A DNA stretch of 64,000 nt from Leptolyngbya sp. SIO1E4. Lineage in GTDB: Bacteria > Cyanobacteriota > Cyanobacteriia > Phormidesmidales > Phormidesmidaceae. The notes beneath the pieces are model-generated. The model made no database searches. It was not told the DNA's origin and was given only the letters and a program-made list of their open reading frames with translations. Both the position numbers and the translations under genes were made by a program. Positions 50,816 to 53,248 of this stretch are shown one piece after another. Positions within the stretch are counted from its first letter, which is position 1. Every line of letters starts with the position of its first letter. The stretch spans positions 1,860,001 to 1,924,000 of the forward strand of contig JAAHFU020000001.1 in the NCBI GenBank assembly GCA_010672825.2. Direction: 5' to 3'.

Positions 50816-52150
50816 ATGGCAAAAATTGCGCTGACGTTCAATGGTGCACCTCAGATAGTTCAGTCATCCGAGGGAGTACAGCTAGGAACTGCTGAGCTAT
50901 TGCGAGTCATCGAAGAGCTTAGCGCTGCCTGGAATGAGCCCATCCGTGTGACCCTGTTCATGGTAGGAAAACAGCTGCAGCAGATGCAGTCAAGCCACCC
51001 GGAATTACTCGAACACATCGCCCAAAGCGGTCATGAGATTGGCAACAACTCTTTTAGCCACCCTAAGAACTTTCATCAACTGCCCCTTGCCGACGTTCTG
51101 GCTGAGGTCAGGCAAACCCATGAACTCATTACTCAAATCTTTGATCGACCACCAACCTGTTTTCGCCCTCCCCATGGGCTGATCACATCAGAGGCCACGG
51201 CAGCCATCCAAGCAGAATTTCCTGACTATCAAGTTGTGGGTTGGGATCATCACGACGAGAAAGGGAACGATACGCCGGAGGTTTTTCGCGATCGCACCGT
51301 AGACAATGCCACCGACCAGCAAGTGCTGTTGCTCCATGACTGGCGAAAACCCACCCTATGGGCTCTGCGAGGTATCTTGACCCAGCTGCAGCAGCAGGGT
51401 TATCAGTTTGTCTCTCTGAAAGACCTAGACCGTCAGCTCCCGCAGCAGGGATTACGCGCGATCTTGCCCCCCCGAGTCGATATGCCCCGCATTGCCTTTA
51501 CGTTTGACGATGATCCTAAAGTCATCTCCAAAGGCGGCGTGCGGCTAGGAACCGCAGAACTGTTGCGGGTCATTGAAGACCTCAACCAAACTGCAGCGTT
51601 GCCCATTCGAGTCACCTTTTTTGTGGTGGGTGTCAACCTTGAAAAGGCTCAAAGCCAATATCCTGAAGTTCTCCAGCAAATGAAAGCAGGGGGGCACGAT
51701 ATTCAAAATCATTCCTACAGCCACCCCTCGAATTTTCATCAACTCTCAACGGCTGAAGCAGTGGATGAAGTCAGCAAAAATCATGATCTCATCACTGAAA
51801 TTTTCGGGCGCGCGCCCCAGTATTTCCGCCCGCCTAAAGGGTTTATTAGCCAGGAAAACCATCGCGCTATCTTGAAAGCGTTCCCTGGTTATCATATCTG
51901 CGGGTGGGATCGTCACGACGAGAAAGACAGCTACACCGCAGCTCAGCTTAGGAACGCCGTTGTGCGGAGTGCCCAAGATCGGCAAATCGTCTTGCTACAC
52001 AATTGGTACAAAAATACCTTATGGTCAGTGAGAGGCATGTTGGGTGATTTGCAAGCTAAAAATTATCAGTTTGTCAGGCTTTCGGATCTAGAGCGCCAGC
52101 CCACCTTATATGGCCTGAAGTATGGGGGCAAAACCGTGATGAAAGCCTGA
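50816..52150 (+). CDS. Double NodB-type polysaccharide deacetylase, first domain degenerate
   Basis: A 444-residue protein made of two NodB domains in tandem (about 1-205 and 222-435) that clearly arose by duplication. Domain 2 keeps every motif: TFDDDP, NHSYSHP, RPPKG, VLLHNW. Domain 1 reads TFNGAP and NNSFSHP, so both motif-1 Asp and the first metal His are lost, while RPPHG and LLLHDW remain. Domain 1 should be inactive and may bind sugar or serve as a scaffold. There is no signal peptide, which is odd for an enzyme of extracellular polysaccharide. It stands 44 bases upstream of the HAS-barrel-like gene. Confidence 0.85.
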   Translation: MAKIALTFNGAPQIVQSSEGVQLGTAELLRVIEELSAAWNEPIRVTLFMVGKQLQQMQSSHPELLEHIAQSGHEIGNNSFSHPKNFHQLPLADVLAEVRQTHELITQIFDRPPTCFRPPHGLITSEATAAIQAEFPDYQVVGWDHHDEKGNDTPEVFRDRTVDNATDQQVLLLHDWRKPTLWALRGILTQLQQQGYQFVSLKDLDRQLPQQGLRAILPPRVDMPRIAFTFDDDPKVISKGGVRLGTAELLRVIEDLNQTAALPIRVTFFVVGVNLEKAQSQYPEVLQQMKAGGHDIQNHSYSHPSNFHQLSTAEAVDEVSKNHDLITEIFGRAPQYFRPPKGFISQENHRAILKAFPGYHICGWDRHDEKDSYTAAQLRNAVVRSAQDRQIVLLHNWYKNTLWSVRGMLGDLQAKNYQFVRLSDLERQPTLYGLKYGGKTVMKA

Positions 52151-52193: not shown

Positions 52194-52826
52194 ATGGATT
52201 TTTTAGACCGCTCAGAGACATCCCAGCGCATTGGCAAAGTCGTTAAATCCAACTCTCACTGCGACTATGTCATTCAGGTGGATGATCATCATGATGTCGT
52301 GCACCCACCCAATCCAGAAGACTATGGGTTTGGTCAATTTGTGACCCTTGAAGACGGCGATCGCCACTGGGCTGTCGGGTTAATTTACAACTCCCAACTG
52401 GTGAATCCTCTGTTTCTCAATCATGGGCCGCGCCTTTCGAGCGAGCCTGACCCCATGTTTACCCCTGATCTGATTAGCGAAACCCGGACCTTATTAGGCG
52501 TTGTCCTGGTAGGCACCCTAGCCACTCAGGATGCCATTACCTATGGTCAGCATGGGATTCCAAAACATGTCGTGCCTGTCAACACAGATGTTTACAGGCT
52601 GGATGCCGACACGATTTATCACTTCCATTGCAAGGTGGATGGGAGTCCTCAGTTTGCCTATTACAGCCATCTATTACGATCAGGGGGGTTATTTGCCGCT
52701 CAGCTGACTCAACAGGTACTGACAGAACTGATCGACAACACCTTATTCACCGGGGCCGATCAGCGAGCGCTCACCGTTTTATGTAAAGAACTGTCATGGA
52801 AGAATACGTTGGGAGCAATGCGCTAA
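52194..52826 (+). CDS. HAS-barrel-like conserved cyanobacterial protein
   Basis: A 210-residue protein with AGGAGAGG before its ATG. The N-terminal region (about 8-60, RIGKVVKSNSHCDYVIQVDD) has the pattern of the HAS barrel found in HerA-type ATPases and ATP synthase. The rest is mixed alpha/beta with no catalytic motif I recognise. HerA/NurA genes for DNA end processing are not in this window, so a functional link is only a family-level guess. It may be co-transcribed with the deacetylase gene. Confidence 0.5.
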   Translation: MDFLDRSETSQRIGKVVKSNSHCDYVIQVDDHHDVVHPPNPEDYGFGQFVTLEDGDRHWAVGLIYNSQLVNPLFLNHGPRLSSEPDPMFTPDLISETRTLLGVVLVGTLATQDAITYGQHGIPKHVVPVNTDVYRLDADTIYHFHCKVDGSPQFAYYSHLLRSGGLFAAQLTQQVLTELIDNTLFTGADQRALTVLCKELSWKNTLGAMR

Positions 52827-52867
52827 ACTCCCCCCTGCTCCCCTATCACTCATCAAATTTTCCCAAT

Positions 52868-52943
52868 AAAAAACCGACAGAGCTCCCGTGTGCCCGTCGG
52901 TCAGTGTGTGTTCCCTGTAGATGACTCGGCTAGAGTTGAGTCT
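52868..52943 (-). ncRNA. Putative small RNA, copy 1 (76 nt)
   Basis: On the minus strand: a 5' hairpin GACTC/GAGTC (52942 down to 52923), an unpaired middle containing AGGGAACACACACTG, and a terminator stem ACCGAC/GTCGGT (52901-52896 with 52878-52873) followed by TTTTTTATT. The predicted start lies just downstream of a GATACT -10-like box. An identical copy lies 235 bases to the right. The architecture resembles cyanobacterial Yfr1, but its core motif ACUCCUCACAC is absent. Confidence 0.6.
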
Positions 52944-52997
52944 ATTTAAGTATCTTCAACGAGGCTGTTTCTTCGCACGATCTCCATCACCCTGCCA

Positions 52998-53013
52998 GGT
53001 GAGAATGATCACA
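52998..53013 (-). promoter_or_regulatory. CRP-type palindrome upstream of sRNA copy 1
   Basis: GGTGAGAATGATCACA differs by one base from the CRP consensus TGTGA-N6-TCACA. It lies about 60 bases upstream of the predicted RNA start. In cyanobacteria SyCRP1-like cAMP receptors use this sequence. Confidence 0.6.
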
Positions 53014-53102
53014 TAATTTTTCTACGCATCTTACACACACCCAAGTCAATACCATTGACTCAACAATTTTATGGGTAACACCCCTGCCGTAATTTTCCCA
53101 AT

Positions 53103-53178
53103 AAAAAACCGACAGAGCTCCCGTGTGCCCGTCGGTCAGTGTGTGTTCCCTGTAGATGACTCGGCTAGAGTTGAGTCT
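53103..53178 (-). ncRNA. Putative small RNA, copy 2 (76 nt)
   Basis: Identical to copy 1 over 88 bases (53091-53178 against 52856-52943), that is, over the whole predicted transcript and its T-run. Upstream the two copies diverge except for the -10-like CATACT and the CRP palindrome. This shows that the transcript, not the whole region, is conserved. It ends at T-run 53108-53103. It is divergent from purL. Confidence 0.6.
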
Positions 53179-53232
53179 CCATCAGTATGTTCAACGAGGC
53201 CATGACCTCCCGCGATCGCTATCACCCCAGAA

Positions 53233-53248
53233 TGTGAGAATGATCACA
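53233..53248 (-). promoter_or_regulatory. Perfect CRP-type palindrome upstream of sRNA copy 2
   Basis: TGTGAGAATGATCACA matches TGTGA-N6-TCACA exactly. It is about 60 bases upstream of the predicted start of RNA copy 2 and about 130 bases upstream of purL, so it could also act on purL. Confidence 0.7.

Follow-up and report, generated by a model that had tools for sequence, protein, structure and literature searches.

CyaR and Spot 42 are enterobacterial small RNAs (sRNAs) under CRP-cAMP control. The RNA described here resembles them in being encoded by a stand-alone small RNA gene, in its CRP control, which is predicted in our case, and in its intrinsic terminator. It differs in that CyaR and Spot 42 act through Hfq-dependent pairing in enteric bacteria, whereas the present RNA has a two-site promoter and belongs to a different phylum; to our knowledge, there is no sequence relation between them. 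CRP-controlled sRNAs as a kind are known from enterobacteria, and it is the family and its cyanobacterial link that are, as far as we have found, new. In cyanobacteria, SyCRP1 and AnCrpA bind the consensus TGTGAN6TCACA, the -10 box lies about 22 bp downstream of the CRP site, and the CRP targets named in the accessible part of the source code for proteins, which serve pili and motility in Synechocystis and nitrogen fixation in Anabaena (PMC2633013).

Among the cyanobacterial sRNAs, Yfr1 carries the motif CACUCCUCACACC (accessible part of PMC4734099) and Yfr2 promoters are bound by a GntR regulator in Prochlorococcus (accessible part of PMC6778093). The present RNA is set apart from Yfr1 by its core, its CRP-type promoter and its patchy distribution. 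Its purine-rich open motif is alike in some letters to that of Yfr2/Cyano-1, as an earlier note on this DNA remarked, but it has no Rfam match. The same note had stated that neither diagnostic core is present, and this was upheld: the Yfr1 core, tested as CTCCTCACAC, was found in 0 of 80 aligned rows, which places the RNA outside Yfr1, and the Yfr2-like AGGAAACA was likewise found in 0 of 80. Rfam, whose library presumably includes the Cyano-1 model, was searched up to E 10. Neither Yfr1 nor Yfr2 was matched and no family fits; the only matches were to Xoo2 (RF02241), a weak likeness arising mainly through the terminator; its scores of 16.5 and 14.2 bits (E 1.1 and 3.9) fall short of the gathering score, which is 45, and it was rejected as chance. 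No published description of the RNA was found in the open-licence literature, where a search for GGGAACACAC together with cyanobacteria gave a match that concerns rice. Lacking both an Rfam family and a description found in that literature, the RNA appears, as proposed earlier, to be undescribed. We use the word in the sense of uncharacterised, because a Nostoc copy may sit unnamed among the 327 predicted Nostoc sRNAs of Table S3 in PMC4734099, as far as the accessible part of that paper indicates.

The RNA genes and their fold

The window, the whole 64,000-nt stretch of DNA that was analysed, is G000:C1:1860001-1924000 of a cyanobacterial genome and contains two RNA genes:

52868-52942, minus strand: sRNA copy 1, 75 nt, 5' end at 52942, T-run 52873-52868 (sequence and cmsearch)
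53103-53177, minus strand: sRNA copy 2, 75 nt, identical to copy 1 (sequence and cmsearch)

Direct sequence comparison bore out the two identical 88-base blocks at a spacing of 235 that had been reported: 52856-52943 and 53091-53178 are identical for exactly 88 bases and bounded by mismatches at both ends, and a repeat search lists the pair as a single 166-nt direct repeat (89%). The identity was said to run from the transcription start to the T-run, which is roughly correct; it extends slightly further, by 12 nt after the T-run and by 1 nt ahead of the RNA's 5' end. Both copies end in six Ts on their own (minus) strand. The covariance match of copy 1 is G000:C1:1912866-1912942 (E 4.3e-17 with model R1 and 4.8e-14 with model R2), as expected by construction, since both models include the window's sequence. 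The fold of copy 1 is weakly better than that of shuffled sequences (z -1.75; 10 of 200 shuffles equally good), and folds of five sequences from other genomes gave z of -2.75 to -4.79. A simple sigma-70 and terminator scan, which requires a -35 hexamer in its promoter rule and loops of 3-8 in its terminator rule, reported no site at the locus of either copy.

Both sRNA genes lie on the minus strand between an ORF at 52194-52826 (+), which has no Pfam match, and purL (ORF from 53372, +). They converge on the former and diverge from the latter; the earlier description of the pair as upstream of purL holds for position, but the RNAs point away from that gene. The other neighbours are a gene for a phycobilisome protein (Pfam Phycobilisome), which by our reading is apcD, a two-domain polysaccharide deacetylase and purF. 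The deacetylase is a 444-aa ORF (50816-52150, +) with two polysaccharide-deacetylase stretches (PF01522); in the first repeat TFNGAP takes the place of the TFDDDP seen in the second, and one of the two catalytic motifs may therefore be degenerate. Of 152 loci, 84 have one or more of five window genes within 3 kb of the RNA, and the remaining 68 have none. In the large family f28, which is probably Nostocaceae (f35 is probably Thermosynechococcus), the RNA adjoins an apcD-like gene at L046 and L052. The nearest downstream ORF is on the opposite strand in 97 of the 152 loci, on the same strand in 49 and missing in 6; a leader or attenuator of the neighbouring gene was ruled out by the opposite orientation in those 97.

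The RNA consists of a 5' hairpin, an open near-invariant core and a terminator with a covarying stem. Invariant positions make up 34 of the first 37 in a 29-row alignment and take in all of the 5' stem and all but one base of the open stretch, whereas the terminator stem varies with compensation. Among 80 rows, 7 of 13 pairs are changed on both sides, a number matched by 0 of 500 shuffles and set against 0 to 3 in slid controls, although related sequences can beat shuffles for other reasons. As drawn, the 5' stem has a predicted mean pairing above 0.5 in 73% of 74 distinct sequences. At L052 it is rebuilt on CTC-TAGCC-GAG, and at L075:7506-7587 the 5' hairpin is unrelated in sequence and of the same shape, with core and terminator kept. 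Just 37 start codons occur within the first 60 nt across the 74 sequences, 34 of them open to the RNA end, and there is no conserved reading frame, which rules out a coding RNA. Judged by comparison, the unit is a stand-alone non-coding RNA gene: conserved, structured, non-coding and ending in an intrinsic terminator, as befits an sRNA, even though the consensus terminator scan alone was negative.

The open core and its possible partners

The core AYRGGGAACACA occurs in 80 of 80 aligned rows, which were selected by a covariance model that itself includes the core, and the open stretch reads ATCWAYAGGGAACACAC in most members. Folding of the 74 distinct sequences gave a mean probability of 0.82 (lowest 0.57) that the core is unpaired. 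The open AGGGAACACAC core is most likely the functional part. The explanation that we favour, and hold to be probable, is a stand-alone trans-acting sRNA of ~75 nt that is activated by cAMP-CRP and pairs with mRNAs through this core. The pairing step is suggested by the core's invariance and openness.

Target searches were restricted to perfect complements of the core, and neither the 9-base nor the 11-base search gave a start-region site common to several genera and kept in other carriers. The 11-base complement GTGTTCCCTGT was found at 57 places in 34 genomes. Twenty-three of these are the sRNA genes themselves, and the 34 places outside them stand against 37 occurrences of the reversed pattern; 30 of the 34 were examined, that is, all save two each in G037 and G043. 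The recurrent gene recognised there encodes a CVPC-type pterin-4a-carbinolamine dehydratase in the window's genome and in G006 (L205, L213); its early codons contain 14 nt that are perfectly complementary to the RNA core. Dehydratase genes were then compared with PF01329 over 59 genomes (32 loci, then 12 more). Carriers G002, G015, G028 and G033 have TGTATTCC instead, and G004 has a shorter match. The dehydratase was rejected as a target, the complement not being kept in other carriers and the codons encoding a protein motif.

The 9-base complement GTGTTCCCT and its reversed pattern were found 9 and 8 times in G009, 24 and 30 in G140, 16 and 24 in G227, 21 and 8 in G326, and 13 and 14 in G052, an excess in G326 alone of the five genomes. 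Among the 81 of 83 places analysed, the sole gene with GTGTTCCCT in more than one genus (G009, G140 and G227), which we take to be FtsH, carries the site deep in its coding sequence. At L357 and L297, in the Thermosynechococcus-like congeners G140 and G227, a 9-base core complement lies 22 nt upstream of an ATG; the following ORFs are unequal in length, and no similar ORF was found for G326, the third member of the family. Feedback on crp was also unsupported: over 23 start regions the predicted duplex was mostly no better than shuffled, and the four lowest values (0.04 to 0.09) all fell in genomes that lack the RNA.

That no conserved complementary mRNA site emerged from the 9- and 11-base searches, and that the invariant core is longer than a seed usually has to be, would also suit a CRP-controlled RNA that mainly binds a protein through its open AGGGA-type core, as a titration sponge, without pairing to mRNA. 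Long invariance, however, equally fits an sRNA with many targets, each RNA offers one core, and multiple copies occur at just 12 of 152 loci. We know of no candidate protein to report, and consider this reading unlikely.

The two-site promoter and its probable regulator

The following elements precede the two RNA genes:

52949-52954, minus strand: -10 box GATACT of copy 1, at -12 to -7 with the first G as +1 (sequence)
53184-53189, minus strand: -10 box CATACT of copy 2, at -12 to -7 (sequence and logo)
52976-52991, minus strand: proximal CRP-like site GGTGATGGAGATCGTG of copy 1, centre at -41.5 (sequence and logo)
53211-53226, minus strand: proximal CRP-like site GGTGATAGCGATCGCG of copy 2, centre at -41.5 (sequence and logo)
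52998-53013, no strand assigned: distal CRP site of copy 1, 9/10 to TGTGAN6TCACA, centre at -63.5
53233-53248, no strand assigned: distal CRP site of copy 2, 10/10 to TGTGAN6TCACA, centre at -63.5

Each copy has the order distal TGTGATN4TCAC, weaker proximal site, 21 bp, -10 box, 6 bases, RNA. The earlier note had placed one CRP-type palindrome, TGTGA-N6-TCACA, in each promoter. The distal palindromes were recovered as described, but both copies have a second, weaker site whose centre lies 22 bp nearer the start. The proximal site ends 21 bp before the -10 box, which fits the spacing of about 22 bp published for cyanobacterial CRP sites (accessible part of PMC2633013).

The arrangement recurs in other genomes. 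A site with at least 8/10 agreement to TGTGAN6TCACA is present in 168 of 173 distinct upstream regions, and one with 9 or 10 in 149, as compared with 6.2% and 0.6% of base-shuffled upstream regions. By our rule, 139 non-redundant promoters comprise 121 with a distal site, 7 with a proximal site only and 11 with neither. The logo of the 121 promoters reads TGTGAT....ATCAC, then TGAT...GATCGC (TGAT-N3-GATCGC), then the start of the -10 box, the A and T of which are kept in 0.83 and 0.82 of them; information between these elements is near zero, indicating that the elements are conserved for themselves. The proposal that selection acts on the RNA and on a CRP-type site is borne out by conservation across many genomes.

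Departures from this layout were also found. The Thermosynechococcus-like promoters (L039, L044) have one perfect site at the proximal place and none at the distal place. The extra copies L081, L178 and L239, and also L116, have no CRP-type site, and so not every copy need be CRP-controlled; extra RNA copies that lack CRP sites hint at a division of labour. At L016, L017, L018, L019 and L020, all in Adonisia/Leptothoe-type genomes, more GTGAT half-sites lie upstream of the distal site in a CRP-like array.

The window's genome encodes a CRP of 234 aa, counted from the chosen Met, that is related to solved CRP proteins and has the recognition helix SGLARETVTR. RETVTR is present in 23 of 23 CRP orthologues checked, this one included. 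Across the 386-genome sample, a CRP match at E<=1e-40 was found in 122 genomes, of which 109 reach E<=1e-70 and 13 are distant. A SyCRP1-type orthologue at about E<=1e-99 is encoded in 47 of the 48 RNA-bearing genomes, and an orthologue at E<=1e-70 in 62 of the 338 RNA-less genomes (Fisher p 9e-29, uncorrected for kinship, which inflates the association). In the forty-eighth carrier, G154, CRP is a 96-residue remnant with two stops (L312, G154:C1:2550404-2550691), whole in three congeners, and the RNA has a terminator-stem mismatch with its distal site intact. The relatives G199, G205 and G104 have neither a CRP match nor the RNA, and G116, G203 and G291 have CRP and lack the RNA. Within the 386 genomes the RNA never occurs without a CRP gene or its remnant, and the direction of the association is clear. 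The RNA has features expected of a CRP-controlled sRNA: its CRP-type sites stand at distances suited to activation, ahead of a conserved -10 box, and a matching CRP is encoded in the same genome, as a remnant only in one of the 48 carriers.

The window's genome also has 14 PF13545 matches, 11 of them above the cut-off, and binding sites overlap within the Crp/Fnr superfamily, as would be expected if another member regulated the RNA. Yet the sites are the textbook TGTGAN6TCACA, and the SyCRP1-type protein has a matching helix and co-occurs with the RNA. CRP acting as a repressor is at odds with site centres at -41.5 and -63.5 before a -10 box without a clear -35, which are activating positions. 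Control by another Crp/Fnr member, or repression by CRP, appears quite improbable to us.

Comparison across genomes defines the RNA unit, its fold, its two-site promoter and its co-occurrence with CRP; the transcription start, activation by CRP-cAMP and base-pairing as the mode of action we infer. Under the favoured reading of a cAMP-CRP-activated sRNA, a rise in cAMP would lead CRP of the SyCRP1/AnCrpA type to occupy both sites, the proximal site (class II, -41.5), which overlaps the -35 region, and the distal site (class I-like, -63.5), which lies two helical turns further upstream, and to recruit polymerase. Transcription would run away from purL and stop at the intrinsic terminator, and the RNA would accumulate. 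At high cAMP its open core would then pair with mRNAs, altering their translation or decay. The first two steps, the rise in cAMP and the binding of CRP with recruitment of polymerase, draw on established CRP biology and on the promoter anatomy.

Distribution and possible role in cAMP signalling

BLAST, suggested earlier as a check for recurrence, found the block in 37 of 59 genomes, that is, in 36 besides its own, which argues against chance. Two covariance models, built from 29 and 80 sequences, both identified the same 48 of 386 genomes in a sample of the phylum. Among named-genome contigs, 113 stretches contain the exact 25-base core, and 80 of these were listed by title. These 80 are all cyanobacterial, by title or by what we take the genus name to denote, and include Leptolyngbya, Nodosilinea, Stenomitos, Phormidesmis, Myxacorys, Leptothoe, Adonisia and Microseira, among them the culture-collection strains Leptolyngbya sp. 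PCC 6406 and Nodosilinea nodulosa PCC 7104; no title of Synechocystis PCC 6803 is among the 80 of 113 matches listed. Carriage by viruses was ruled out, the exact 25-base core occurring in 0 viral contigs.

When 25 relatives were searched again with looser filters, 22 gave no match and the 3 matches were those that BLAST had already given. Because the looser search adds no genome, the RNA seems to be truly absent from most of these 22, of which two (G016 and G029) are incomplete genomes. As 62 of the 109 genomes with a close CRP orthologue and these 22 of 25 relatives have no RNA, the RNA is, within the reach of these searches, widespread but patchy and no universal partner of CRP.

Copy number is one in 45 of the 48 genomes and more than one in 3. 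The tandem pair reported earlier is real in the window and an exception elsewhere, since a motif search found several copies at 12 of 152 loci. The RNA gene is multiplied to four copies at L129 and L145 and to three at L075, L081, L108 and L237. A functionless repeat element or fossil insertion, with the window pair as a recent local duplication, would account for the 88-bp identity and the existence of tandem arrays, but is highly improbable given the prevailing single copies, the recurrence of one or more of the five window genes near the RNA (within 3 kb) at 84 of 152 loci, the structure and promoter elements kept between variable spacers, and the absence of exact cores from viral contigs.

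The role of cAMP in cyanobacteria is just partly mapped. If our reading is correct, a conserved sRNA with a two-site CRP promoter would link cAMP directly to post-transcriptional control. We suggest more tentatively, and at somewhat less than even chances, that in many filamentous cyanobacteria, and in some others, this RNA may be the chief post-transcriptional arm of cAMP signalling. It would then be an output dedicated to CRP, with an invariant core that controls a broad set of mRNAs and a gene that, along with its two-site promoter, persists as long as CRP does and disappears from lineages without it.
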